Source: Acidobacteriota bacterium
Lineage (GTDB): Bacteria; Acidobacteriota; Terriglobia; Acidiferrales; UBA7541
Reading direction: 5' to 3'
Assembly: GCA_003223325.1 (NCBI GenBank)
Contig: QHYS01000051.1
Span: forward strand, 1 to 43,267
Length of the DNA stretch: 43,267 nt
The position numbers were made by a program, and so were the translations under genes. Below, in pieces: positions 1 to 20,765 of this stretch. A model generated the notes under the pieces. The model was not told the origin of the DNA. It did no database searches and worked only from the letters and a program-made list of their open reading frames with translations. Position 1 is the stretch's first letter, and the number at the start of each line of letters is the position of its first letter.

Positions 1-924
1 CAGAGAGGAATACCGCGGCCGCCAGCCGAGGAGCTCTTTGGCTTTCGCCGCATCGGCGACGAGTTCGGGCGGGTCGCCGGCGCGACGCGGCGCTTCGTGA
101 ATCGGGACTCGGCGTCCACTCGCTTGCTCGACCGCTGCAACCACTTGGCGAACCGAATGTCCATTTCCCGTGCCAAGGTTAATTGCCGCGTTCTCTTGGC
201 TCCTGTGCATGTGCCTGAGGGCTGCAACATGCGCCTCGGCCAGATCCATAACATGGGTGTAGTCGCGAATTGCGGTGCGGTCTGGCGTGAGGTAATCCGT
301 CCCGTATATCTCGAGAGCCGGTTTCTCTCTCAGAGCTGCTTGAATGGCGAGTGGAATAAGGTGAGTTTCCGGTGAGTGGTCCTCTCCGAGCTCACCATCA
401 GGGTCGGCACCGGCCGCGTTGAAATAACGCAGCGCTGTCCAGCGCAAGCCGTAAGCCTCACCGTACCAAGCGAGGATGCGTTCGACCATCCTCTTCGATT
501 CACCGTATGGATTAATTGGCGTCTGGACCTGCTCCTCGCGAATGGGGACGCTTGTAGGAATGCCGTAGGTCGCGCAGCTGGACGAAAAAACGATGTGTTT
601 TACCGACATATCTGTCATTGCGTCCAGCAGTCTGAGCGTGTAGGTCACGTTGTTGCGAAAATATTGCCGCGGGCGCTGCATGGACTCTCCCACGTAGGCG
701 AAACCGGCAAAATGGACAACGGCTTGCACCCTGTGGGTTCTGATTACTTCGCGAATCAATGCGGAATCTCCTAGATCTCCTTCGATCAGCGGCCCCCATT
801 TCACGGCCCACCGGTGCCCGCTTGACAGGTTGTCGAGCACGATCGGTTCCAACCCTGAGCGGGCCAAAGCTTTGGCAGTATGGCTTCCGATGTAGCCCGC
901 CCCGCCGGTCACGAGTACCCGCAT
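1..924 (-). CDS. galE: UDP-glucose 4-epimerase, 3' end cut by window edge
   Basis: Interconverts UDP-glucose and UDP-galactose in the cytoplasm, feeding envelope polysaccharide synthesis. The 308 codons present read without a stop off the left edge; family length is about 330, so only some 20-25 residues are missing. The N-terminus has the NAD-binding Rossmann signature TGGAGYIGS (residues 6-14). The SSCATYG stretch carries the catalytic Ser, and NPYGESK holds the YxxxK catalytic pair. RYFNAAGAD and IRDYTHVMDLA are further typical GalE signatures. The start ATG is preceded by GGAGG about 8 bases upstream. It has no close partner on the same strand inside the window. A related NDP-sugar epimerase is possible, but the motif set fits GalE well. 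Confidence 0.93.
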   Translation of the reverse strand, partial: MRVLVTGGAGYIGSHTAKALARSGLEPIVLDNLSSGHRWAVKWGPLIEGDLGDSALIREVIRTHRVQAVVHFAGFAYVGESMQRPRQYFRNNVTYTLRLLDAMTDMSVKHIVFSSSCATYGIPTSVPIREEQVQTPINPYGESKRMVERILAWYGEAYGLRWTALRYFNAAGADPDGELGEDHSPETHLIPLAIQAALREKPALEIYGTDYLTPDRTAIRDYTHVMDLAEAHVAALRHMHRSQENAAINLGTGNGHSVRQVVAAVEQASGRRVPIHEAPRRAGDPPELVADAAKAKELLGWRPRYSSL

Positions 925-1034
925 CCTTCCCTCCTCCGCCAAAACTAGAATCTCCGCCACAACCTCAGCTGGGGCGGAGATCGCAATACTCTATGATTTC
1001 AATACTGCGGCACTCTACTAGCGCCATTCATCTC

Positions 1035-1055
1035 GCATTAACACCCTATTAATGC
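1035..1055. promoter_or_regulatory. 7-bp perfect inverted repeat upstream of galE
   Basis: GCATTAA at 1035-1041 and TTAATGC at 1049-1055 form a perfect dyad with a 7-base AT-rich centre, about 110 bases upstream of the galE start. The geometry (21 bp, centre-to-centre 14) resembles an operator for a dimeric regulator. No regulator can be assigned. Confidence 0.35.
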
Positions 1056-1150
1056 GGAAGGGCTGCGTCAATTACCTGAAAGAAGTAACCTAGGAGGTTA
1101 GTACCGGCTAGGTGGGCTATTTACGAAATGAAGATAAATGGCACGATGAA

Positions 1151-1453
1151 TTAGAGGGCATACTGCAGGCCGATTCGGTACCGGCGCCCGGGCGCCACTG
1201 GCTGTACCCAGCGCACTTGAACGAGAGTAGGGATTTTCGCGGGCATCCGGGCGAGCCGAAGTCGGCCTTGAAGAAGCCCAGAAATTTGTATGGGGTGGGT
1301 AGCAACCATAGAGAACCCACCGTCGGAAATGTTTGTCACTGTTCCTTGAGTGATTTCTGACCCTTCCTGCCCGCGAAGTGACGGTAATGGGCTGCCCGTG
1401 AATCGTCCATTCGCCGGGTGTCGGGAATGAGCGCGCTTTTCCTTACTATTCAT
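1151..1453 (-). CDS. PilZ-domain protein (putative c-di-GMP receptor)
   Basis: A 100-residue single-domain PilZ protein. It carries the N-terminal basic RxxxR motif (RAHSR, residues 7-11) and, further on, the NISDGGFSM stretch, which matches the second c-di-GMP binding motif ([D/N]xSxxG). The rest is the predicted beta-barrel core ending in RYRIGLQYA. Such proteins bind cyclic di-GMP and modulate motility, polysaccharide export or transcription. The ATG at 1453 was chosen because the PilZ motif begins just after it; a GTG at 1519 in the same frame would add 22 residues without similarity to the domain. A small dyad sits directly in front of the start. A LuxR-type regulator gene lies upstream on the same strand, 75 bases away. 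Confidence 0.8.
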   Translation of the reverse strand: MNSKEKRAHSRHPANGRFTGSPLPSLRGQEGSEITQGTVTNISDGGFSMVATHPIQISGLLQGRLRLARMPAKIPTLVQVRWVQPVAPGRRYRIGLQYAL

Positions 1454-1468
1454 AGTACGTATAGTACT
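1454..1468. promoter_or_regulatory. AGTAC-N5-GTACT dyad at the PilZ gene start
   Basis: AGTAC (1454-1458) and GTACT (1464-1468) form a perfect 5-bp dyad touching the proposed start codon of the PilZ gene. A bound protein or mRNA hairpin here would mask the translation start. A similar AGTACTACGTAC stretch lies near 18405 upstream of another gene. Functional role is unproven. Confidence 0.25.
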
Positions 1469-1528
1469 GCACTTCGGCGCCGAGGTCATCCCCCTCAGGA
1501 GCAAGCGCAGGACGAGCACAGCATGAAA

Positions 1529-2239
1529 CTAGCGGAAGCTCCCCCCATTGATTGCTTGCGATGCCTGCAGCATTTTCCCGATGATGCCGTGCCTGTACTC
1601 CGCTCCCACCTTGATCATGACGGATCGTAAAAAAGCCTTTGCCGTGTTTGGACTGATGCCCATCCGGCTTGCGATCTGCTTGGTGCCCAGTCCCTGCACC
1701 AGGAAATCGACGGTTTCAGTTTCTCGCGGCGTCATGCGGAGTTTCCGAGCTAAGGTTTGGAGGTGAAGAATGCCTCGGTGATTTCGTTCGAGTAAGAGCG
1801 CTACGGCAGGTCGCTGCCCGCTTTTGAGATTCGATTTAACCGGAAAGGCCCGCACCTCGTAGCACCTTTTCCCCGAGGCGAATTCATTCGGAAATTTGGA
1901 AGGTGAGAGACCGTTATGACCGCCATTGCTGGGAAGTAGCGATTGAATCCTTCTTTGTAGCAAATTTTCAAACCCTTTGTTTTTGGATGGAACTCGCGGA
2001 TAAGCAAGGATCGCCAGGGCCTCCTCGCTCGCGCAGATGAGCCGGAAGCATGCATCCAAAAGGATAAATCCCATGCCTAGCGAATCTGCCTGCAGATGAC
2101 TTGAAACATGACCGTTCCCAGAGCTCATATCGATTGCATGATGAAACTGTTCCGCAGAAACAGCACCGAATCGCCCTAAAGGATTTCGCAGTTTTTCGGG
2201 GAATGGCCCTGATGAATTTGACTTTCTCGTTGCTAACAT
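1529..2239 (-). CDS. LuxR-family transcriptional regulator with N-terminal PAS-like sensor
   Basis: A 236-residue regulator. The N-terminal two thirds (about 55-150) has a PAS-like layout around MGFILLDACFRLICASEEALAIL-type sequence, the usual start of a PAS fold. The C-terminal 60 residues form a GerE/LuxR helix-turn-helix: LRMTPRETETVDFL, then GLGTKQIASRMGIS and SPNTAKAFLRSVMIKVG. No receiver-domain aspartate pattern is visible, so it is not an obvious NarL-type response regulator. The ATG at 2239 is preceded by a G-rich stretch (GGGGG) about 7 bases upstream; an in-frame TTG lies 12 bases further up. It sits upstream of the PilZ gene on the same strand and could control it or galE. The ligand is unknown. 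Confidence 0.8.
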   Translation of the reverse strand: MLATRKSNSSGPFPEKLRNPLGRFGAVSAEQFHHAIDMSSGNGHVSSHLQADSLGMGFILLDACFRLICASEEALAILAYPRVPSKNKGFENLLQRRIQSLLPSNGGHNGLSPSKFPNEFASGKRCYEVRAFPVKSNLKSGQRPAVALLLERNHRGILHLQTLARKLRMTPRETETVDFLVQGLGTKQIASRMGISPNTAKAFLRSVMIKVGAEYRHGIIGKMLQASQAINGGSFR

Positions 2240-2251
2240 CAGCACCCCCAA

Positions 2252-3059
2252 TTGCGATGGTCACACCCTTCATTAGGACCGATTGCGAAGAACAGATCTG
2301 AAAACGTGCGCTCCTCGTGGAGGACGCGCAGTATCTCTTTCTGTGGTCGTTAGCTGTCACCTGTCCGGAGAAGTTTCATTGGGTTCGGCGTCTGAGTCAA
2401 CCTCTGCCGCTTTGCCGTCCCACGTAGCAGGCCCGCCACGACGCTAAACCTATCGCTGATCGCGCCCCCGCACCCACTCACGCCAGGACACGCCCATAGG
2501 TCCGATATGGCGGTACCTCTCGTACCGAGTCGCTACTAGGCGCCGCGGCGAAACCGTGGTACAGGTGCCCATGTTATGACTCAAGATGATCCATTCGAGG
2601 CGCACAAACAAGCGGGTGAATCCATGCATCGGAATTAAGTGAATTGCTCACTTCCAAGTGCGTAGATGTAGATTCCAAGAAAACGGCCAATTAGGGTTGA
2701 ATTAGACCCTTCCCAACAGCGTAACGTAGCGGACCAGACCGGCGCCTTCGTGGATATCCAGCTTTCGCATGAGCCGCGACCATTGAGAAGATTGCCAAGG
2801 CATTGCACGTTCGGCTTTTAGAACTGTTGCAAAAATCGGGGTACACGGTATGACTATTACGGCTTACGTGACAAGCGAGGAAACTCTGTAGTTTGCGTTC
2901 GGCAAGTCCCTTAGTACTAGAGTCTGACTCCTTTCCAATTCCAAAAGTATACTCGGCGCAGCTACAGGCTATAACGGGGTAGCCAAGAGCGGGAAGAACA
3001 GGAAGAGGTAGATGAATTACAGGTATCTTCACCATTCTTTTTTTGGACTGACCTGCTTC
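2252..3059. other. Gene-poor spacer, about 0.8 kb
   Basis: No open frame here has a recognisable domain. A minus-strand open frame at 2691-3035 (114 codons) starts next to AAAGA, but its translation is low-complexity Cys/Ser/Arg-rich and matches nothing I know. A 6-bp hairpin CGGTAC-CTCTC-GTACCG lies near 2511-2527. The stretch may be an eroded gene or simple spacer. Confidence 0.4.
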
Positions 3060-6262: not shown

Positions 6263-6658
6263 ATGAAAACTAAGTTGGGCCTCTTGGTTGGCGGTATCGG
6301 CTTGCTTGTCGCGGCGCTCCCGGCGCTGGCGCATCATGCGTTTGTAGCCCAGTACGACGCCAGCAAATCGACGACGTTGCACGGCGTGGTGACCAAGGTC
6401 GAGTGGACCAATCCTCACGCCCGTTTCTACGTCGATGTAAAAGACACGAGCGGAAAAGTCATCAACTGGAACCTGGAACTCGCCAGCCCCAACGCGCTTC
6501 GGCGGCTGGGCTGGACCAGAGATATCCTCAAAGTCGGCGATCAGGTCAGCGTGTTCGTCGCTCCTGCCAAAGACGGCACCAAAATGGCCAATGCCAGAAC
6601 GGTTACGCTCTCCGACGGCCGGAAGATGGTGGCCGGATTGGCACCCGAGCAGCAGTAA
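6263..6658 (+). CDS. DUF6152 family exported protein
   Basis: 131 residues with a signal peptide ending LPALA, then HHAFVAQYDASKSTTLHG, VTKVEWTNPHARFYVDV, a WNLELASPNALRRLGW block and the closing TVTLSDGRKMVAG. This is the full motif series of DUF6152 proteins, short exported beta-rich proteins abundant in Acidobacteriota and Proteobacteria, with no assigned activity. The HH pair at the mature N-terminus is conserved in the family and could bind a metal (inference). Its TAA lies inside the ribosome site of the next gene, so the two are likely translationally coupled. Confidence 0.85.
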   Translation: MKTKLGLLVGGIGLLVAALPALAHHAFVAQYDASKSTTLHGVVTKVEWTNPHARFYVDVKDTSGKVINWNLELASPNALRRLGWTRDILKVGDQVSVFVAPAKDGTKMANARTVTLSDGRKMVAGLAPEQQ

Positions 6659-6669
6659 GGAGGCGCATG

Positions 6670-7479
6670 ATGAGAAAGGATCTCGCTCGCTCGATCGTGA
6701 CCGCGCTTTCTGTGGCAGCCCTTTTGGCCCTGTCCGCGACTTCAGCCATCGGCCAGGGCCAACCTGAACCGGCAGGTGTCAATCCAGCGGGCGGAGGCGT
6801 ACCGATGCGTAGCTTGGAGCGCCTGAAGGCCAAGTCGGCCGGGCCAGCGCCGCGCACTGCCGATGGCAAGCCAGACCTGTCCGGACTGTGGGGGCCGGCG
6901 CCCAACTTCGGCCGTGATATTTCGGCCACCCTCAAACCTGGCGAGAAGCTCCCCTTACAGCCCTGGGCGCTCAAGCTCACCCAAGAGCGGCTGCCGAAGG
7001 ACGATCCGGAAGCGAGTTGCCTACCCGCGGGCATACCACGCATGTCTCCGTTTCCATGGAAGATTATCCAGACCCCACAGCTGATCGTCTTTCTGATCGA
7101 AGGGAACGTGCATACTTACCGGCAGATCTTCCTGGACGGGAGCGGCCATCCCAAGGACCTGGATCCCACCTGGTACGGCGATTCCCGGGGTACGTGGCAG
7201 GGAGACACGCTGGTCGTAGACACGGTGGGATTCAACGACAAGTTTTGGTTCGATGGGCTCGGCCACCCGCACACTGAGAAGCTGCATATAATCGAGCGCT
7301 ACCGCCGTCTCGATTTTGGGCACTTGGATTTCGAGGTCACCATCGACGATCCCGGCGCCTATACCCGGCCTTTCACGATGTACGGGCAGTCACCCTTGCT
7401 TCAGAACACCGAAATCATGGAATACTTCTGTGTCGAAAACAACCAAGACGTCAGCCACATAATCGGTAAAACGAGGTAG
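6670..7479 (+). CDS. Exported PDLSGLW-type protein of unknown function
   Basis: 269 residues with a signal peptide (MRKDLARS, hydrophobic run, cut near SAIGQ). It has the tag RTADGKPDLSGLW at the start of the mature domain, a DPEASCLPAGIPRM segment, then QTPQLIVFLIEGNVHTYRQIF, DPTWYGDSRGTWQGDTLVVDTVGFND, the HTEKLHIIERYRR block and DPGAYTRPFTM near the end. Proteins with this motif order are numerous in Acidobacteriota and often sit next to DUF6152 genes; no enzymatic role is established. AAGGAGG at 6657-6663 serves either ATG at 6667 or 6670; 6670 has better spacing. Third gene of the trio. Confidence 0.8.
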   Translation: MRKDLARSIVTALSVAALLALSATSAIGQGQPEPAGVNPAGGGVPMRSLERLKAKSAGPAPRTADGKPDLSGLWGPAPNFGRDISATLKPGEKLPLQPWALKLTQERLPKDDPEASCLPAGIPRMSPFPWKIIQTPQLIVFLIEGNVHTYRQIFLDGSGHPKDLDPTWYGDSRGTWQGDTLVVDTVGFNDKFWFDGLGHPHTEKLHIIERYRRLDFGHLDFEVTIDDPGAYTRPFTMYGQSPLLQNTEIMEYFCVENNQDVSHIIGKTR

Positions 7480-11236: not shown

Positions 11237-11269
11237 AGCATGAGCCTATCTGACTCTCGCTATGAGTCA
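11231..11269. promoter_or_regulatory. Palindromic operator candidate of the vapBC operon
   Basis: ACTCATAGC (11231-11239) is the exact reverse complement of GCTATGAGT (11259-11267). Nested in it are CTCAT-AGC-ATGAG (11232-11244) and TGACTC-N7-GAGTCA (11251-11269). On the minus strand, TTGACT (complement of 11264-11270 region) is a -35 candidate inside the dyad. Overlap with the promoter and the antitoxin start codon suits autoregulation by the antitoxin-toxin complex. Confidence 0.6.
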
Positions 11270-11366
11270 AGTAGTTCCGTCCTGTTGGTCCTGTTGACAG
11301 AAACTTCGCATAGCGCGTCTCGGTGATCATTCATAGGTCTGTGAAGACGGCAGTTACCCACCGCAG

Positions 11367-11756
11367 GTGGTGTGGGGCAGATTCGCACGGTGTTTTGCGC
11401 ACCGTCGGCGGCATGTCAAGGGCATGAGTGGGCTGTCCAAGCGGCGCAGGGGAACAAGCGGCCGGGCTCAGTGGATGAGTGAGGTCGAGTATAGGCTTGG
11501 CGTCGCCCAGTCCCGCCAGAGGGCAAGCTATGAGAGTTGGCTCCGCAAATGGATTGCTGCGGTTTTGGTTCTGGACGTCGACGAGGAAACTACTCACCCC
11601 TACGTGGCCATCGGCCTGCAGCTGAAAAAGAAGGGCAGAGCCATTCCCGCCAACGATCTGTGGGTCGCCGCGCTTTGCCGCCAACATTCTCTGCCGCTAC
11701 TGAGCCGGGACCGGCACTTCGATCTTGTCTCCGGCCTCCGGCGCCTCGATTCGTGA
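11367..11756 (+). pseudogene. Remnant of a second vapC-like PIN toxin
   Basis: The open frame of 129 codons carries, from about residue 37, a PIN-domain second half: SEVEYRLGVAQ, VLVLDVDEETTHPYVAIGL, GRAIPANDLWVAALCRQHSL and PLLSRDRHFDLVSGLRRL. The catalytic Asp of ND-L-W and the RDRHFD motif are present. The first 30-40 residues are Arg-rich and lack the essential DTN/DSN aspartate near the N-terminus. No antitoxin frame lies upstream. It is therefore a 5'-truncated toxin gene, facing the intact vapBC pair on the other strand. Confidence 0.65.
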
Positions 11757-11868
11757 TTCGCCAGAGGAGTGCGCGCTGTCGCCATGTGAACCTCCTCCCT
11801 ATTTGGCGACGCGAAACCGTTTCTGGCACAAATCAAAATCGATAGCGGCATCGGTTAACGAATGCGGA

Positions 11869-12432
11869 TTAAACGGCATGACCCACCAGTTTTCGGGCTG
11901 CCAGCGAGAACATAAGACGACTGATCCCACTGAAGAGCATGCTGACTCCCACAAGGGTGCCCAGAACCCAGGCGGTGCTGAAGGGCCAAGTGCGCCAAAT
12001 CATGACCGCAAGAATTAAGGTAATGACGCCATCCACGAATAGCCAGCCGGAGCCGCGACGAGGCCGAAGTTGGAATCCCAGGACGAATTCGAGGACGGCC
12101 TCTGCGAAAAGATAGATCGCAAGCGCTAGGGTGAGCGATGCCATGCCCAATAGCGGATGGGACAGCACGTACCCACCCACAAACGCGTACGCGATCCCCA
12201 CTAGAATCTCCCAAATAATCGCGCCGGTACCACGCGTATGCCAAGCATAGACAAAATGCATCAGACCGCTTAAGACGAGTAGCCATCCGACGAGGATTGT
12301 GACGGCAATTCCAGCGACCGGGGGAATGATGATGGCGAGCACGCCCGCCACAATCATGAGCACACTGAGAGTGATCGACCAAACAATGGATTTCCTAACT
12401 AAGGCGGGCAGGCCCATTGATGTGGTGTTCAT
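11869..12432 (-). CDS. hdeD: HdeD/DUF308 family membrane protein
   Basis: 187 residues with six predicted membrane helices arranged as three hairpins: SITLSVLMIVAGVLAIIIPP, GWLLVLSGLMHFVYAW, EILVGIAYAFVGGYVL, SLTLALAIYLFAEAVLEFVL, FVDGVITLILAVMIW and LGTLVGVSMLFSGISRLMF. Repeated GxxxxxxGxxxxxxP patterns typify DUF308, the family of the E. coli acid-resistance protein HdeD. In acid-soil Acidobacteriota such genes are frequent; a role in acid tolerance is by analogy only. The start has GAGAGGTGA seven bases upstream. Two small zinc-ribbon genes lie upstream on the same strand. Confidence 0.85.
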   Translation of the reverse strand: MNTTSMGLPALVRKSIVWSITLSVLMIVAGVLAIIIPPVAGIAVTILVGWLLVLSGLMHFVYAWHTRGTGAIIWEILVGIAYAFVGGYVLSHPLLGMASLTLALAIYLFAEAVLEFVLGFQLRPRRGSGWLFVDGVITLILAVMIWRTWPFSTAWVLGTLVGVSMLFSGISRLMFSLAARKLVGHAV

Positions 12433-12446
12433 AACTTCACCTCTCT

Positions 12447-12671
12447 CTAGTTCAATCCGACAACACGGACCTTAGGAGTTCCGATATTCGGCATATCCTG
12501 GCCGTCTTTGATTTTGTCTGCTGGGTAAGGTGCCTCCTTGCCGCATCGCTGGCACCGGATGAGAGAAACCCGTGGATCATCGGCAAGTCGGTTTTCGGGG
12601 GCGGGAGTAAGCAGCCCACAAAAAAGGCACACAACTGCTCGGCGATTTTTCCGGCCTGCTGTCTGATTCAT
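12447..12671 (-). CDS. Small zinc-ribbon protein
   Basis: 74 residues. Two Cys knuckles, CLFC (about 15-18) and CQRC (about 41-44), separated by some 22 residues, make a likely four-Cys zinc ribbon; the tail is lysine-rich (YPADKIKDGQDMP). The ATG at 12671 was chosen because a GGAGG lies seven bases upstream; a longer reading to 12794 is Pro/Phe-rich and unlikely. It ends 14 bases before the HdeD-like gene and could share its transcript. No specific family is recognised. Confidence 0.65.
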   Translation of the reverse strand: MNQTAGRKNRRAVVCLFCGLLTPAPENRLADDPRVSLIRCQRCGKEAPYPADKIKDGQDMPNIGTPKVRVVGLN

Positions 12672-12841
12672 GGGCTGTTCCTCCATAAAACATAAAGCTT
12701 CTGGGGATCCCGAGGGGCCGCGATAGTACATCCTCCCCAGGCCAATGTCTATCGTGGCGAAAAACGATATTGGGCTTACCGGAAACTGGGCCACTGGCCC
12801 ACGGTTCTCGCCTTGCTATCCTGCTCTGGTTGCTGCGGAAT

Positions 12842-13057
12842 TCACCGCCTATTGAGTCTCCGGTCCGGGTCGGCCGCTTTTTCGACCTGGAGTAACTGCC
12901 CTGGAATTTCCTGCGTCCAATTGTGGCCGCACCACGGACAGGAAATTGTTTCTGTAGGAAAAGAAAGAGCAGCCGTTTGGCTCGCTCGGTAAGTTATTCT
13001 CACAGGTTTGCTGCAGCGGGTGCAGTGCTCATCTCTCTTGAACACGGTCTCGCGCAT
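12842..13057 (-). CDS. Small zinc-ribbon protein, second copy type
   Basis: 71 residues with two Cys pairs, CTRC (12-15) and CPWC (40-43), in a four-Cys ribbon, followed by GHNWTQEIPGQLLQVEKA. It resembles its downstream neighbour in architecture but not closely in sequence. The ATG at 13057 has AAGG about 8 bases upstream. Possibly a DNA- or RNA-binding accessory protein; nothing more can be said. Confidence 0.6.
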   Translation of the reverse strand: MRETVFKRDEHCTRCSKPVRITYRASQTAALSFPTETISCPWCGHNWTQEIPGQLLQVEKAADPDRRLNRR

Positions 13058-13482
13058 AGTAAAGCCTTATGCTCGGTCGGTCGCAGTTGTTAAAAAAATG
13101 CGTTAAGCCTGCCAAACCTCGCGCAGGTTCAAAAGTTACAGGCTTAGTGAAGTGTCAAAGGAATTTGACCCTGTCGTTCAGGGCCAGAATGCTGTTCAGA
13201 TTGGCCTAACGCTCGGTCCTGGTTCGTGCGCGTCCAGTGAACCCAGGTGAGAGGTGGTTCGTACTTGGTGGATTGAGTGGACCGGGTACGGGTACGGAGA
13301 CCTGTGAAAAGAGTGGAAGATGAATTAGGAAAAACCCGATGAGCGAGAAATTGAGAGTCAATATGGCTTTCACGTGGCCTCCACCACCAGCATAGCCACG
13401 CCGAGTTAAAAGCTTGGAGGCAAAGAATCAATCGGTGCTATTCAAAATATCGTTCCCATTGGGGAGTCAACGCGAGAATGAA
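13058..13482. other. Spacer without recognisable gene
   Basis: About 425 bases. A minus-strand open frame at 13144-13431 gives a Trp/Ser/Arg/Thr-rich translation with no signal or domain and is not credible. It contains nothing else I can name. Confidence 0.4.
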
Positions 13483-14199
13483 CTAGAGACTCAATAACGA
13501 ATCGCAGGAATAATTGATGTGCAGCGAGTCATTTCCGGTTTCGAAAGCGTTAATCCAGTAGCTGTAGGATGTTCACGCGCGAACGGAACCGAACTTTTGG
13601 ACTGAGATTCTCCAAGCCCCGAGTTCCGGGAAGGGCTGGTGCGTGAACGCGTTGGTAGCGACGATGACTGACCGCGCCAACAGCGAGCCCCCATCGGTCT
13701 GGATCACGTGCCGACCGTCGCTCGCGCTATGTATTCGTCGCACGGGCACGCCGGTGTATAGCTCGACCCCCGCATTCACCGCCACCTGCAGCACGCCGTA
13801 CGCGAATTTCGCCGGATGGTAGGTGCCGTCGCCGGGCACAAAGCGCCCGATGAACCCGCGCTCGAAGCCGAGTTCGTGGCGGATTTTCATCCGCGACCAG
13901 ATTTCGACTTACGGGTCGTGCTCGGTGGCCAGCCACCTCTTCGCAGATTGCCTGCTCTTCGCGCTCGGTGTGAGCAAGGTAGAGCCAGCCCTTGGGCGAA
14001 AATCGCAGGCCAGCCGTTCCTGCTCGATGATCTGCTTGAGCCGGTCCCGATTGCGCACGGCGAAAGAGAAGACCAGCGATGCCTGGCGCCCGGCGTCCAC
14101 GCGCAACACCTCACGTGGGATGGCTGGGTAACAACGGCTCAGGAAGTGCAGGCGTTCGCGGGCCAGGCGGTCGTAAGTGCCTACCGAATTCTGCGGCTT
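13483..14199 (-). pseudogene. Broken FAD-dependent oxidoreductase (DAO family)
   Basis: Reading from 14199: GTYDRLARERLHFLSRCYPA, EVLRVDAGRQASLVFSFAVR, RLKQIIEQERLACDFRPRAG. An in-frame TAA at 13909-13911 follows. The same frame goes on with ELGFERGFIGRFVPGDGTYH, PAKFAYGVLQVAVNAGVELY, VPVRRIHSASDGRHVIQTDG and ARSVIVATNAFTHQPFPELG. This is the central part of a glycine/D-amino-acid oxidase-type (DAO) flavoprotein; AKFAYGVLQVAV and VIVATNAF are signature segments. The N-terminal GxGxxG FAD site is missing and the C-terminus dissolves into other frames (a piece SYSYWINAFETGNDSLHI up to 13483). One stop, a 5' truncation and a 3' frameshift make it a pseudogene. Confidence 0.75.
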
Positions 14200-14590
14200 T
14201 CAGCCTGCGCACGTGCTCGCGGCTGATACGCCTGCCTTGCGAGCCGGCGTCGCTAAGAACGCAAAGCAACTTGGCGAGTTCAGCGTGGGAAGTGGACGGA
14301 GCAGGACCCCGGCTGGAGGTCTGCATGCTGTGTCAGGCTCGGGGGCCAAGTAGTGCGATAAATTCCCGGAGCGCTGTAAGTTCGCGCATCTGGTATGACT
14401 GCCGCGGCTGCGCAACAGCATTGACCGCCTCTAGCCGCGGGGGCGAACATGCCAAGGACACAAAACTCGGTCGCGAAGTCGCGATCCTGGTGGCTGGGCA
14501 AGGATGGCTATAGGAACACGACTGTCTTGCATTAGGATCCGGAACGGGAGGATGATAATTCCTAAATTACCCATTCCAAGGGAGAAGCTG
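14200..14590. other. Spacer between the broken oxidoreductase and the haem-propeller gene
   Basis: About 390 bases. No frame yields the missing FAD-binding N-terminus or any other recognisable protein. It should contain the promoter of the downstream plus-strand gene; TTGCAT near 14528 and GATAAT near 14555 are visible, but their spacing (21) is poor. Confidence 0.35.
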
Positions 14591-16264
14591 ATGGAAATCA
14601 AGCGAGTCTTGCTTACCGCAGGTGGTGCTCTTGCTGCCATCCTTCTTCAAACCGCGTTTGCTCGACTTCACGCAGAGGCTCGGACGGCATCAGCGTTGAG
14701 CGGGCAGGTCGCCTCCGCTGAGGAAGGTCCGATGGAAGGTGTGGTGGTCAGCGCGAAGAAGGACGGTTCGACGATCAGCATCAGCGTTGTGACCGATGCC
14801 GCGGGCCGCTTTGCTTTCCCAGTCGCAAGACTCGAACCCGGACACTACGTATTGAAAGCCCGCGCGGCCGGCTATGAGCTGGACGGAGCAAGCGCCGCGG
14901 ATGTCACCTCAGGCAAGGAAGCCAAGGCTGACATCAAGCTCAAAAAAGTGAAGAACTTGTCCGCCCATCTCACCAATGCCGAATGGTTGATCAGCATGCC
15001 CGGCACGGACGAGCACAAACGCTTCCTGCTCAATTGTACCGGCTGTCACACGCTCGAGCGCATCATGAAGTCGACGCATGACGCCGACGGCTTCATGGAA
15101 GTCATCCAGCGGATGAGCCTCTATTATCCCGGCAGCACTCCCCTAAAGCCGCAGCGCCTCGTCGGCACTGCAACTCGCGATGTTGAACGCGGCGGCAACG
15201 GCAGGAAGACCGCGGAATGGCTCGCCAGCGTCAATTTGAGCGAGGCGCCGACCTGGGCTTTCCCTCTTAAGACCCAGCCGCGGCTCACGGGCAAGTCCAC
15301 GCATGTGATTGTCACCGAATACGATTTGCCAAATCCATTGATCCAGCCGCACGACGTGATGCTCGATCGCGAAGGCAACGTCTGGTACTCCGATTTCGGT
15401 CAGATGTTCCTCGGGAAGATGGACCCGAAGACCGGCAAGGTGATGCAATACCCAATCCCGGTCGTCAAGCCGGGATGGCCGGAAGGCACGCTCGATCTCG
15501 AATTCGACAAGGACGACAATCCTTGGGTCGGCGTGATGTACCAGAACGCCATCGCGAAGTTCGACAAGAAGACTGAGAAGTTCCAGATGTGGACGACGCC
15601 CAAGGAATGGGACACTGACGGCGGCCAACTCGGGCATCTCGCAATCGAAGGCACTCCTATCGACAATAAGGTGTGGATCAAGAACTCTGATGAAGGCTAC
15701 ATCTACCGGCTCGATCTGATCTCCAACAAGATGGAGAACCTCGGCAATTTCAAGGATCCCCAGACCGGCAAGCGCATCGGGACCTACGGCATCCACTCGG
15801 ACGCGCAAAACAACGCCTATCTGCTCGATTTTTCGGCCGGCAATATCGTCAAGATCGATGCAAAGACGAAGAATGCGACTGTCTACCAGACCCCGACCCC
15901 GGACTCCCGTCCGCGGCGCGGTCGGGTCGATCGCGAAGGCCGGTTGTGGTTTGCCGAATATCAGGGCAACGCGATTGGCAGGTTCGATCCCAAGACTGAA
16001 CGCATGACCGAGTGGAAGGTGCCAACGCCATGGAGTGCGCCGTATGACGTCGTGGCCGACCGCAACGGTGACGCGTGGACCGGGTCCATGCTAACCGACC
16101 GTGTGGCACGTCTTGATATTGAGAGCGGCCAGTATACGGAATACATGCTGCCGCGCCCGACCAACATCCGCCGCGTATATGTCGACGATTCGAAGAACCC
16201 CGGCACGCTTTGGATCGGTAGCAACCACGGCGCATCGATTGTCAAGGTCGAACCGCTCGACTAG
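14591..16264 (+). CDS. Exported fusion: carboxypeptidase-regulatory domain, CxxCH haem site, Vgb-like propeller
   Basis: 557 residues. Signal peptide MEIKRVLLTAGGALAAILLQ with cut near FARLHAEA. Residues about 35-118 are a carboxypeptidase-regulatory beta-sandwich (SALSGQVASAEEGPMEGVVV to HYVLKARAAGYELDG). Residues about 125-225 hold NCTGCHTLERI with C149-x-x-C152-H153, a c-type haem attachment site in a short cytochrome-like module. From about 235 a seven-bladed Vgb/streptogramin-lyase-type propeller follows, with repeats such as IQPHDVMLDREGNVWYSDFG, ARPRRGRVDREGRLWFAEYQ-type and PYDVVADRNGDAWTGSMLTD. Families of this kind are annotated as virginiamycin B lyase-like, but the haem module suggests a periplasmic redox or sensing role rather than antibiotic cleavage. 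Start has GGGAGAAG upstream. Length and frame are intact. Confidence 0.85.
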   Translation: MEIKRVLLTAGGALAAILLQTAFARLHAEARTASALSGQVASAEEGPMEGVVVSAKKDGSTISISVVTDAAGRFAFPVARLEPGHYVLKARAAGYELDGASAADVTSGKEAKADIKLKKVKNLSAHLTNAEWLISMPGTDEHKRFLLNCTGCHTLERIMKSTHDADGFMEVIQRMSLYYPGSTPLKPQRLVGTATRDVERGGNGRKTAEWLASVNLSEAPTWAFPLKTQPRLTGKSTHVIVTEYDLPNPLIQPHDVMLDREGNVWYSDFGQMFLGKMDPKTGKVMQYPIPVVKPGWPEGTLDLEFDKDDNPWVGVMYQNAIAKFDKKTEKFQMWTTPKEWDTDGGQLGHLAIEGTPIDNKVWIKNSDEGYIYRLDLISNKMENLGNFKDPQTGKRIGTYGIHSDAQNNAYLLDFSAGNIVKIDAKTKNATVYQTPTPDSRPRRGRVDREGRLWFAEYQGNAIGRFDPKTERMTEWKVPTPWSAPYDVVADRNGDAWTGSMLTDRVARLDIESGQYTEYMLPRPTNIRRVYVDDSKNPGTLWIGSNHGASIVKVEPLD

Positions 16265-17038: not shown

Positions 17039-18274
17039 TCAGGGCACAGGCAGCAGGGGTTTCTGGCCCTCGGGCAAGCGCTGATCGAACGCGGTCAGCA
17101 ACGTCGCGTCGGTGGAATGCTGAGCCATCAAATCAACCAGGTCCACCAGGTCCGTCTCGCCGAAGATTTTCAAGGCGCGAGCGTAGGTCTCGGCAGTCAC
17201 CATATGCTTGCCGAAGAGCTCACGACCGAATTGGATAATAGCAGCTTCTTTTTCGCCTATTCCCCTCGGCGGCCTGCGGTCGCGCACAGTGTCAATAATC
17301 ATCGGTTCCAGGCCGTCCTCGCGCGCCATAGGCTCATTCATTGTCCAGTCATACTGCTGATCATGCTCGCGGGCCGTCACCAGGATCGCCAGCCTCATCA
17401 AACGCTGCCCGACGTGGGCTTCCAGCGACTTGCGTCCTCCTTGGTGGAGCCTGATCTGTCCAGGCCCGGTGCCCGTGGGCGCAAGCTCGCGGCTGTAAAG
17501 AATGGCCGGCGTCTGCGTTTGCGTCTTGATCAAGGGCAGGCGGCTTCTCGAATCAGGGTAGATGTCATCGGGCGGAGTGAAAGGCAACGGCAAGAACTGC
17601 CTCATCTGAGGGGGCATCTGCTGGTTGAATGCGGTGAGTCTCGCGGCCGTCCCCGCGTACTGAGCCATCAATAAAACGATGTCAACAAGGTCGCTCTCCC
17701 CCAGGAGTTTCAAGGTACGTGCGTAGGTCTCAGAGCTGAGTTTGTGTTTGCCGACGATTTCACGATTCAGCTGAACGACTATTACTTCCTTGTCGCCGAA
17801 TCCTGTGAGGGGTTTGTGATGGCGGACTACATCGATGACCGCAGGATCCAATCCCACGGCGACCGCTTCCATCTCATGAAGCGACCACTCGTACGGCTGG
17901 TCGCACTCGCGGGCCGTCGTTACAATAGCCAATTCCGTCAGCCGACGCCCGAGCGGGGACGCCCAGCGAACATCTACTCCTGAACCATGGAGGCGTATCG
18001 CGGCTACCCCTTGTGGCTCCCCGGACTTCGAGCTGGAGGCGGCAACGGCGTCGTCAGAGGCCTTCCTGCCGCGTTCATCCAAGCCTTCTCGTTTGATCAG
18101 AGGAAGTCGGTTGCGTGAATCCGGAAAGATGTCCTTGGGAAGTGTTCCCTCGGCTTCAAGAACAGCTCTTCCGATACTACCGGAAGGTACCTGCGCCGAT
18201 AGCTTGAGTTCCGACGCGGCCCCGCTCGCTCCCGCCACAAGCAACAAACCCGCAAGAACCTGGACTGACCTCAT
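17039..18274 (-). CDS. Exported tandem AhpD/carboxymuconolactone decarboxylase-like protein
   Basis: 411 residues with a signal peptide (MRSVQVLAGLLLVAGASGAA). Two copies of one domain follow, from about 48 to 235 and about 238 to 411. Each opens with DI[F/Y]PDSR[N/S]RLPLIK, then has a RLHxxG/QGG loop, GRRLTELAIVTTARECDQPY versus GQRLMRLAILVTAREHDQQY, a GLDPAVIDVVRHHKP / GLEPMIIDTVRDRRP block, and TYARTLKLLGESDLVDIVLL versus TYARALKIFGETDLVDLVDL. This is the carboxymuconolactone decarboxylase/AhpD helical fold. The CxxC redox pair of AhpD is absent in both copies; only ECDQ keeps one Cys. Export of this fold is unusual. The gene stands alone between opposite-facing or distant neighbours. Confidence 0.8.
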   Translation of the reverse strand: MRSVQVLAGLLLVAGASGAASELKLSAQVPSGSIGRAVLEAEGTLPKDIFPDSRNRLPLIKREGLDERGRKASDDAVAASSSKSGEPQGVAAIRLHGSGVDVRWASPLGRRLTELAIVTTARECDQPYEWSLHEMEAVAVGLDPAVIDVVRHHKPLTGFGDKEVIVVQLNREIVGKHKLSSETYARTLKLLGESDLVDIVLLMAQYAGTAARLTAFNQQMPPQMRQFLPLPFTPPDDIYPDSRSRLPLIKTQTQTPAILYSRELAPTGTGPGQIRLHQGGRKSLEAHVGQRLMRLAILVTAREHDQQYDWTMNEPMAREDGLEPMIIDTVRDRRPPRGIGEKEAAIIQFGRELFGKHMVTAETYARALKIFGETDLVDLVDLMAQHSTDATLLTAFDQRLPEGQKPLLPVP

Positions 18275-18497: not shown

Positions 18498-20765
18498 TCA
18501 GTCGCATTTGGGCGCTCGCGTTCTTTGATCCCGAATCTCGCGCAGATGCTGGCGCAGCCGCTCGAGCACCTCTTCCCCGCCCGAGTTACGTGTTTCCCGC
18601 AGCAATTCGTTTAGAGCAAAGTGCACCACATCGCGATGGTGCAATTCATCAGGAGCGACATCATTGCTGAATTCGAGCCAAAGACTATGCAAGAGATCGA
18701 TTTCCTTGGGGGTGAGATGGGGCGCATGCGGCCCCAGGTAAAAGACGTGTTCCTGGCCGTTCGGAGAATGGATTTCGAGCGTCAATTGCGGCTTAGGCGG
18801 AGGGAGGGCTTCCCAAGCCAGCCCTGCTATACGTGCCTCCTCGGCGATCGACCGCCGGGGAGAAAGCCCCAGAACCACCGTCGATGATTTCAGGCCCTGC
18901 GCGGCCCGGAGGATGCCGTCCCACTTTTCCGTGGCCGGAGCGACCGCGAGGCGCACGGTCTTGCCCATCTTTTCCGCCAAGTTCAGGCAGCGAGTAAACA
19001 ATTCCTGTTCTTCGCGGCTAAAGAGTTGCTCCGGTTCGAGTTCGTGCTCGCCCGAAGCGGCGCGTTCGAGAAGCCGGAGATGCAGCACGGCGATATCCTG
19101 TTTCTGCGTGTTCGTCCTTCGAAGGATCGCGCCGAGGTGGTAGAGCGTGTTGTAGTTGCGGACCATCACCAAGATGTTTCCGGGCCGGACACCCACCGCC
19201 TCCGGAGTTAGTTCCCCGCCCGGCTCGAGGTTGAACTGATCCAATTCCACGTGAGCCGCGCCGCGCTTTTGGGTAATCTTTTCGGATATCTCGAATACCG
19301 CGAAAAATGCGATTGTGAAGGCGACCCCCGAGATCGTGGCGACCTGCTTGGTGAAAAGATTTACCACGCAGAGCGCAACCAGAACCAACGTAACGAAACC
19401 TAAACCCACGGGAATCTCCACACCTGAAATTTTTAGGTTCAGAGGGACGCGAAATTCCCGCTGGCCCGGCTCCTTATAGCGCAGAACCAAGACCGCCAGC
19501 CCCTTCATGGCGAAGCTCCACATCACCCCAAACGCGTACGCCTCACCGAGGATAAATATGTTTCCACCGCTCAGGATAATCGTGAGGAGTTGCAGGCCCA
19601 CAACTAAGTTTAGGATGCGGTGAGAAGTCCCAAAGCGGTGATGCGGCCGCCGGAACCAGTCCGGTAGAATCCCATCCTCGGAAACCCGGTTGAGCACTCC
19701 GTTCGACCCTACGATCGCCGTATTCACGGCTCCCGCGAGCATCAGGACGCCCACAATGACCACAAATGCGCGGAACGCCAGCCGCAGAAGCAACGGCCCT
19801 GATAGGTACATGGCCAGGCCGCCGATCGGGTTGTCGTAGAAGTTTCCGCGGACGTCGTCCGGGATAATCATCACCGCGAAAAACGCCACCCCGGCGGTGA
19901 AGATGAGGCTGTAGAGAAAAATGATGAAGCCTGCTTTTTCCAGATTGCGCAGCTTGGGGTGTTCGATCTCCCGATATACCTGGGCCATGGTCTCTTCGCC
20001 GCTCATCGCCAGAACCGAATGGCCCAGTCCAATCAGGATTCCGACCAATCCCACGGTATAGGGCAGCCGCGTGTGTTTTAACCACCCTAAAGCATCCGTA
20101 GAAAATGTCAGATTGCGCAGCGAGGGCACGGGCGGCAGGTGAGCGCCTTTCATCCACAGCGTATACACGCACCAGACCAGCATGAAGACCACCATCACTG
20201 TGGTCACGTACATGATTCGCAGAGCTTTTTGGCTCGATTCTGGGATGCCTTTGATGTTTTCCCACCAGAAATAAAGGGTCACCAAAATCGCAAAAACAGC
20301 CGCTGTAGCGTTCACCGGTAGAACAAATTGGTAATGCGCGTAATGCAGGAGTTCATTGAGAAGCCCTACCAGATACAGGCCCGCGGATACGCCGCTGATC
20401 GGCCCCGTCAGGATGTAATCGAACATCAATGCCGATACAGAAAATTTCGCCAGCGTCGATCCCATGGCCTCCTTGACCACGCGGTAGACGCCGCCACGCA
20501 CAAACATGCTGCAGCTCTCGATGTAAACCGCTCGCACGGCATAGGCCAGGCACATGATCGCGAGGATGAACCACGGACCCGCCTTCCCGACGAAGTGTTC
20601 CGCAATAGCTCCGGCGTAAAAAGCGGAGGATCCCATGTCGTTGAGTACAATGGCCGCGGCGCGCCAGAACGAAATGAACGCGAGCATGGCCGTGGTGGCC
20701 ACCAGCACGCGAGGCGCGCCGGACGTTCTTCTTTGCTGGGACGAGGTAGCCGAATCGCTCTTCAT
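18498..20765 (-). CDS. APC-superfamily permease with C-terminal Usp-like domain
   Basis: 755 residues. Residues 20-480 form about 12 membrane helices of the amino acid/polyamine/organocation superfamily: helix 1 region VLVATTAMLAFISFWRAAAI, the AMSGEETMAQVYREIEHPK segment near helix 6 with the typical SGEE-x-x-A loop, and AGAVNTAIVGSNGVLNRVSE. The final 250 residues are soluble and contain NILVMVRNYNTLYHLGAIL, DIAVLHLRLLE and KSSTVVLGLSPRRS, resembling a universal-stress-protein fold as in other long APC transporters. The last 90 residues (HLTPKEIDLLHSLWLEFSND and after) are helical and not recognised. Substrate is unknown. No clear ribosome site before the ATG. Confidence 0.85.
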   Translation of the reverse strand: MKSDSATSSQQRRTSGAPRVLVATTAMLAFISFWRAAAIVLNDMGSSAFYAGAIAEHFVGKAGPWFILAIMCLAYAVRAVYIESCSMFVRGGVYRVVKEAMGSTLAKFSVSALMFDYILTGPISGVSAGLYLVGLLNELLHYAHYQFVLPVNATAAVFAILVTLYFWWENIKGIPESSQKALRIMYVTTVMVVFMLVWCVYTLWMKGAHLPPVPSLRNLTFSTDALGWLKHTRLPYTVGLVGILIGLGHSVLAMSGEETMAQVYREIEHPKLRNLEKAGFIIFLYSLIFTAGVAFFAVMIIPDDVRGNFYDNPIGGLAMYLSGPLLLRLAFRAFVVIVGVLMLAGAVNTAIVGSNGVLNRVSEDGILPDWFRRPHHRFGTSHRILNLVVGLQLLTIILSGGNIFILGEAYAFGVMWSFAMKGLAVLVLRYKEPGQREFRVPLNLKISGVEIPVGLGFVTLVLVALCVVNLFTKQVATISGVAFTIAFFAVFEISEKITQKRGAAHVELDQFNLEPGGELTPEAVGVRPGNILVMVRNYNTLYHLGAILRRTNTQKQDIAVLHLRLLERAASGEHELEPEQLFSREEQELFTRCLNLAEKMGKTVRLAVAPATEKWDGILRAAQGLKSSTVVLGLSPRRSIAEEARIAGLAWEALPPPKPQLTLEIHSPNGQEHVFYLGPHAPHLTPKEIDLLHSLWLEFSNDVAPDELHHRDVVHFALNELLRETRNSGGEEVLERLRQHLREIRDQRTRAPKCD

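Follow-up and report, generated by a model that had tools for sequence, protein, structure and literature searches.

What does a protein do that carries a haem c attachment motif directly in front of a propeller of the kind found in antibiotic lyases? The question is raised by a single gene in a 43,267-nucleotide contig from an Acidobacteriota bacterium (QHYS01000051.1), the whole of which is referred to here as the window. The coding sequence was assigned to 14591-16264 on the forward strand, where the preliminary description had also placed the open reading frame. The longest open frame begins at 14504; the ATG at 14591 was preferred because GGGAGA lies upstream of it and because several of the closest homologues align from residue 1. 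The following features were assigned to the gene.

14591..16264, forward strand: coding sequence of the haem-propeller protein, 557 amino acids, stop included; closest homologues match from residue 1.
14591..14680, forward strand: predicted N-terminal export signal, a hydrophobic helix (from sequence; model helix at residues 4-26, low confidence at 21-30).
14696..14944, forward strand: CarboxypepD_reg beta-sandwich (PF13620), residues 36-118 (Pfam).
14954..15286, forward strand: putative cryptic c-type cytochrome module, residues 122-232 (conservation, models and profile match; no Pfam match in this member).
15035..15049, forward strand: CTGCH haem c attachment site, residues 149-153 (C149, C152 and H153 invariant in 60/60 sequences, the window protein counted).
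15113..15115, forward strand: Met175, proposed distal haem ligand (invariant in 60/60; spacing kept in 79/83 open reading frames with CxxCH).
15287..16261, forward strand: seven-bladed propeller of the Vgb fold, residues 233-557 (Pfam, fold match, alignment and blade motifs).

Two of these domains are recognized by Pfam: CarboxypepD_reg at residues 36-118 (50.8 bits; cut-off, 32.3) and Vgb_lyase in two stretches, the better of them in the C-terminal half (101.3 bits; cut-off, 50). No cytochrome family was matched by residues 119-235, which hold the CTGCH motif, and the module of the window protein scanned alone also matched no family. The AlphaFold model of the whole protein is confident (pLDDT 91.9, pTM 0.89). 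Export, as the preliminary description had claimed, is probable given the hydrophobic N terminus; its description of the sandwich as receptor-type was overstated, since PF13620 is a generic beta-sandwich.

Conservation of the haem site was assessed in an alignment of 60 distinct full-length sequences, including the window protein, with identities to it as low as 32%. All 60 carry C149, C152, H153 and M175, which are again invariant in an alignment of 55 sequences from the same set; at the sequence level, this conservation is beyond chance. In a wider set of 92 open reading frames matched by phmmer (85 distinct sequences), 83 contain CxxCH, and in 79 of these a methionine lies exactly 22 residues after the histidine of the last CxxCH. 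The remaining four comprise the first copies in L055 and L056, which have one extra residue and keep the Arg-Met pair, the truncated L082, and the distant L006, which has a tyrosine. The nine open reading frames without CxxCH are fragments and haem-free propellers, and the CxxCH-Met spacing also occurs in distant architectures. The invariance of all four residues supports the earlier reading of CTGCH as a haem c site and provides a candidate for the distal ligand, Met175, which probably occupies that position. Genes for cytochrome c maturation are also present in the window's genome, with a CcmE match well above threshold (79.7 bits; cut-off, 24.6) and three Cytochrom_C_asm matches over the cut-off. 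Maturation genes and a distal ligand were among the checks that the preliminary description had proposed, and both gave a positive result.

The module was also examined on its own. It folds with a pLDDT of 87.1, and its helices span residues 140-149, 155-159, 165-175 and 204-214. Foldseek returned seven weak matches, none at E ≤ 0.001, two of which are cytochromes (c550 and PsbV2). That quinohaemoprotein amine dehydrogenase and other cytochromes do not appear among the matches is no evidence against kinship with them. When 30 Foldseek candidates were re-aligned, only three reached Z ≥ 2, all of them monohaem cytochromes c: SorB (2blf_B; Z 5.2, rmsd 3.8, 72 aligned residues, a Z score within the range that the tool calls common), cytochrome c-553 (1c75; Z 3.8) and SorU (4pwa_D; Z 2.7). 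As a single sequence the module had no PDB match up to E 10. As a profile it matched cytochrome c 3a9f best (E 0.015), with CxxCH and Arg-Met in register, followed by a collagen adhesin, which is not a cytochrome (E 0.021); cytochromes c account for 29 of the 31 PDB sequences found with E no higher than 10. The missing Pfam match and the weakness of the fold matches would suit a different reading, in which CxxCH is a zinc site or a redox disulphide and no haem is present. Against that stand the invariant histidine and methionine partners, the Ccm-type genes and the exclusively cytochrome matches at Z ≥ 2, and we regard the haem-free reading as very unlikely. Binding of haem by the module is very likely.

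The propeller itself is of the seven-bladed lyase type, as first described. Besides the Pfam match, VIA-align aligned model residues 233-556 to the seven-bladed lyase; the best fold match is streptogramin B lyase (2qc5; Z 34.9, rmsd 2.1, 297 aligned residues), the next, unrelated propellers scoring Z 28.6. One motif per blade was located (W265, W312, W362, Y410, W453, W496 and W541) with a pattern written to fit. Six propeller residues, H254, D255, Y399, R443, Y485 and R527, are invariant in 60/60 sequences; their blade positions suggest that they line the funnel of the propeller.

Fold and family match would also be expected of a Vgb-type streptogramin lyase bearing an ornamental haem; this reading is contradicted by the residues at the active-site positions. 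Vgb H270 is identified by the title of 2z2p, which describes a catalytically inactive H270A variant; the other catalytic histidine is H228, located by counting in the alignment. With alignment ranges and blade order used to set the register, the places of H228 and H270 are occupied by the invariant Tyr485 and Arg527, and two catalytic histidines in adjacent blades are not conserved anywhere in the aligned family. Only one histidine at such a blade place is conserved, H254; H349 is present in 20/55 sequences. The NCBIfam models for Vgb(A) and Vgb(B) scored 76.2 and 72.3 bits, far below their cut-off of 600. We therefore rejected an identity as Vgb streptogramin lyase, to which we attach almost no credence even in its haem-bearing form, and the preliminary description was right to doubt the antibiotic lyase label: with Tyr485 and Arg527 at the catalytic-histidine positions, that label is wrong.

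The architecture, the conservation, the confident fold, the maturation genes and the loss of the lyase histidines are the foundation of the reading that we favor, with reasonable though far from complete confidence: a periplasmic monohaem cytochrome c fused to a Vgb-fold propeller, with the haem as an electron relay and the funnel as the site where a ligand binds or a partner docks. The protein would be exported to the periplasm with the CarboxypepD_reg sandwich ahead of the cytochrome module and propeller. Haem would be attached at CTGCH, ligated by His153 and probably by Met175, and would relay electrons, which might then be handed to periplasmic cytochromes. The polar funnel (His254, Asp255, Tyr399, Arg443, Tyr485 and Arg527) may hold a small ligand, probably an anion, or serve as the docking site for a redox partner; we infer the redox function, the direction of electron flow and the nature of the ligand from the features above.

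Haem with His/Met ligation normally serves to relay electrons, and this bears on the earlier suggestion that the protein is itself a dehydrogenase. No PQQ propeller domain was detected (at E 1, neither PF01011 nor PF13360 matched), and a PQQ dehydrogenase was rejected on this ground. With no PQQ family and a relay-type haem, any oxidizing center would sit in a propeller cofactor or in a partner protein, so that the term dehydrogenase, taken at face value, is a fair but unproven guess. The plant- or soil-derived substrate put forward in the preliminary description is conjectural. A true dehydrogenase would require that the funnel hold its own cofactor (a metal, a quinone or a modified tetrapyrrole) and feed the in-chain haem. 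The invariant set of His, Asp, Arg and Tyr residues would fit such a site, but neither PQQ nor any other cofactor family is matched by the protein.

The relatives of the protein form a modular series that bears on the same question. Three paralogues in the window's genome, L002, L003 and L004, have the same layout (56%, 50% and 44% identity). L010, in the same genome, has the haem module and propeller with no sandwich detectable by sequence, and its module reaches SorB (E 0.0042); L011 has a propeller 55% identical to that of L010 and no haem site. L005 (window's genome) and L081 carry a recognized cytochrome c (Cytochrome_CBB3) in front and thus have two haem sites in one chain, an arrangement that looks like an electron chain and would favor a dehydrogenase. 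In every member examined, the propeller follows the haem module immediately. Of the 17 distant rows with residues at the His-Asp pair of blade 1, 15 keep the pair, and the PRR and PY motifs and the blade 7 arginine are kept in most, but not all, distant rows, haem-free members included. Most of the funnel motif persists in the haem-free propellers L011 and L023, which shows that an in-chain haem is not required for it; this counts against the favored relay reading as well as against a funnel cofactor that feeds such a haem. Either the propeller function came first or it can use an external partner. L010, L011 and L023 also have a histidine, by eye, at the corresponding place of blades 1-3 (PHD, PHG and PHT), possibly a metal site, which is absent from the window protein.

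Gene neighborhoods point to no fixed operon partner, which also weighs against the relay reading; the neighbors vary between the loci of homologues. The window flanks look unrelated, with a CMD-domain protein at 17039-18274 and a permease at 18498-20765. The former (reverse strand) looks exported and appears by eye to have two carboxymuconolactone-decarboxylase-like halves, of which Pfam matches one stretch, just over its cut-off. At 13573-13890 (reverse strand) a 105-amino-acid piece matches FAD-dependent (DAO) oxidoreductase and is apparently a gene remnant. A secreted-looking family, named here after its PDLQGVW motif, lies beside homologues in 9/47 loci (raw counts), and the gene at 6403-7479 (forward strand) is a candidate member, judged by eye and by short tblastx matches; its product matched no Pfam or NCBIfam model. 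Members of this secreted-looking neighbor family begin with a start of the type PRTADGKPDLQGVW.

Neighboring genes were called mechanically by G+C bias, and antisense open reading frames polluted the first clustering. The 77 neighbors scanned were a manual selection, made up of 76 from the 153 that lie within two genes and of one third neighbor (L068, from a PQQ-type cluster). TctC receptors account for 8/77, and other propellers also recur. A PQQ quinohaemoprotein-type gene cluster, one member of which (L070) was scanned, is found in 8/47 related loci and lies directly upstream in L070, which would again favor a dehydrogenase. PQQ domains, however, occur in only 4/77 scanned neighbors, the 77 including the L068 gene added by hand, and they are abundant in the window's genome in any case (37 matches). 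Taken with the conserved funnel of the haem-free cousins, this makes a true dehydrogenase rather unlikely, and the monohaem relay fused to a propeller is the reading that we retain.

Another group of neighbors recurs near the paralogues. L002 and L003 adjoin propeller genes that mechanical gene calling split at an in-frame TGA. The genes are of about 700 codons; read through the TGA, one encodes 707 residues. The loci are as follows.

L121:3375-5495, reverse strand: propeller gene with in-frame TGA.
L154:3868-5757, reverse strand: propeller gene with in-frame TGA.
L154:9191-10990 and 11248-13083, forward strand: propeller genes with in-frame TGA.
L040, about 776-2881, forward strand: propeller gene with in-frame TGA, directly upstream of an 89% orthologue of the window gene, same strand.
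L128-L152 and L159-L167: further loci of TGA propellers.

Locus L154 (G000 C184:11000-27000) surrounds paralogue L002 and contains a small protein with two CxxCH motifs along with the three TGA propellers. Judged by eye alone, the locus also seems to encode a Rieske-type oxygenase, class II aldolase, transporter and amidohydrolase, which suggests an aromatic-degradation cluster.

A search of 61 genomes gave at least 56 TGA-propeller matches in eight genomes. Among the 56 listed, a single internal TGA is present in 54; of the other two, one carries a TAA in addition to its TGA, and the second ends before the site and has none. The family is multi-copy, with at least 18 matches in one genome (G055) and at least 14 in another (G059), both lower bounds because only 18 candidates were scored in each. 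Among 396 genomes of the phylum, including the window's own, seven have a TGA propeller, with at least 11 matches when at most two were scored per genome; nine of the 11 have one TGA, one has a TGA and a TAG, and one ends before the site. The TGA is at the same place in 36/36 distinct stretches that cover it, nearly always in the context LVPN-U-V..P....FA, and falls inside a blade when compared by eye with sister repeats. No TGA-free homologue covering the site was found among the matches of the genome searches within the phylum.

A hairpin follows the TGA. Six of its pairs are kept in 36/36 sequences with G-U pairs counted, one of them through compensatory change: pair 30-42, at which both partners are third codon positions, is always either T-A (13 sequences) or C-G (23 sequences). 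In a second, smaller hairpin, each pair is kept in 30 to 35 of the 36. The bSECIS model, in the available portion of PMC13188914, has 16-37 nt from UGA to the apical loop, a G in the first two loop positions and an energy of −7.5 kcal/mol or lower. The hairpin fits that version of the model, with 30 nt between UGA and loop and a fitting loop content, and the energies computed for six sequences (two plus four, one gene being in both sets) lie within the limit. A split gene, with a stop and a GTG restart, is unlikely: two of the 36 have GTA in place of GTG, the TGA by eye lies within a blade, and covariation in the hairpin falls on synonymous positions. G000, the only genome searched for them, has SelA and SelB; no tRNA-Sec match exceeded the Rfam score in this draft of 377 contigs, and all 14 weaker matches are ordinary tRNAs. 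For the TGA propeller, only NHL was over the cut-off in Pfam, no NCBIfam 20.0 model was over its cut-off, and nothing was found in the PDB at E 0.1; a plasmid search returned two weak, distant records. The TGA propellers are a probable unrecognized multi-copy selenoprotein family, probably exported. No propeller selenoprotein is named in the titles and abstract openings of the selenoprotein literature searched, and the word propeller is absent from the available portions of PMC13188914, PMC12013277 and PMC5029168. The available part of PMC12013277 gives three known and no new selenoproteins for one Acidobacteriota genome, which lends no support to a selenoprotein reading of the TGA propellers.

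These genes raise the possibility that the haem-propeller protein is the electron-accepting partner of neighboring TGA-containing, probably selenocysteine, propellers. The two are adjoining same-strand genes in L040 and in G000 C60 (gap of 136 nt), and of 34 haem-propeller places considered in seven genomes, 6 have a TGA propeller no more than 10 kb away, where about one would be expected at random; orthologous places are counted separately in this figure, and those within one genus are not independent. Set against this, the window itself has no TGA propeller. In G055, with its at least 18 TGA propellers, no haem propeller was found at E 1e-20; conversely, haem-propeller matches are numerous in G019 and G029, where the search at E 1e-40 gave no TGA propeller. 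We consider such a partnership doubtful. Equally tentative is its extension, in which the haem propeller would relay electrons in a soil redox system, with the multi-copy, exported selenocysteine beta-propellers, their selenocysteine inside a blade, as the catalytic partner.

The haem-propeller gene is patchily distributed. Matches at E 1e-20 were found in 12/61 genomes and module matches at 1e-10 in 10/247 genomes of the phylum, the window's own being included in both counts. The 47 loci collected come from Acidobacteriota, Beta- and Alphaproteobacteria and Rokubacteria, with origins taken from the titles of metagenome-assembled genomes, whose bins can be wrong. Betaproteobacterial bins hold sequences 79-88% identical (best segment) to the window protein, and in acidobacterial bins the identity reaches 94%. 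In the tree, the window gene lies in a well-supported clade of 25 rows, 18 of which are Pseudomonadota, and horizontal transfer of the gene is therefore likely. A tblastn search of PLSDB gave 17 records, all below 60% identity and none with 80% coverage; these plasmid relatives are labeled 'lyase' or 'virginiamycin B lyase'. The portions of the literature searched held nothing, beyond one AztD title, that joins these propellers with haem, cytochrome or Acidobacteria.

Exported propellers of the Vgb fold tend to be labeled 'lyase' or 'virginiamycin B lyase' or to be left unnamed. Our analysis indicates that a horizontally moving class of them is probably made up of cryptic cytochromes missed by the Pfam release used here, which bears on resistance-gene counts and on redox inventories of soil metagenomes. 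Standard gene calling, which takes the conserved TGA as a stop, would cut the TGA propeller genes in two; if the TGA does encode selenocysteine, some Acidobacteriota are richer in selenoproteins than their annotation shows.

Among known systems, the alpha subunit of quinohaemoprotein amine dehydrogenase combines cytochrome and beta-sandwich domains and works with a seven-bladed propeller subunit. Only 2/55 members of the present family touch PF09098 at E ≤ 1 (best, 0.0063), and the window member has no match at E 1. Cytochrome c 3a9f (database title 'Cytochrome c'), which we take to be the reaction-center cytochrome cz, aligns at CxxCH and Arg-Met in the profile search, at an E of only 0.015, and has no propeller. 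SorB of the Starkeya novella sulfite dehydrogenase (2blf_B) is likewise a small cytochrome c with a methionine soon after CxxCH, 24 residues after the histidine (counted in the alignment) compared with 22 in the haem-propeller protein; it is the best re-aligned fold match and is linked by sequence through L010. Unlike the haem-propeller protein, SorB has no propeller and is a separate subunit of a molybdenum enzyme. Virginiamycin B lyase (2qc5/2z2n) shares the seven-bladed fold along the entire propeller (Z 34-35) at 20-22% identity, whereas the haem-propeller protein does not conserve the lyase histidines and adds an N-terminal sandwich, a haem module and probable export.
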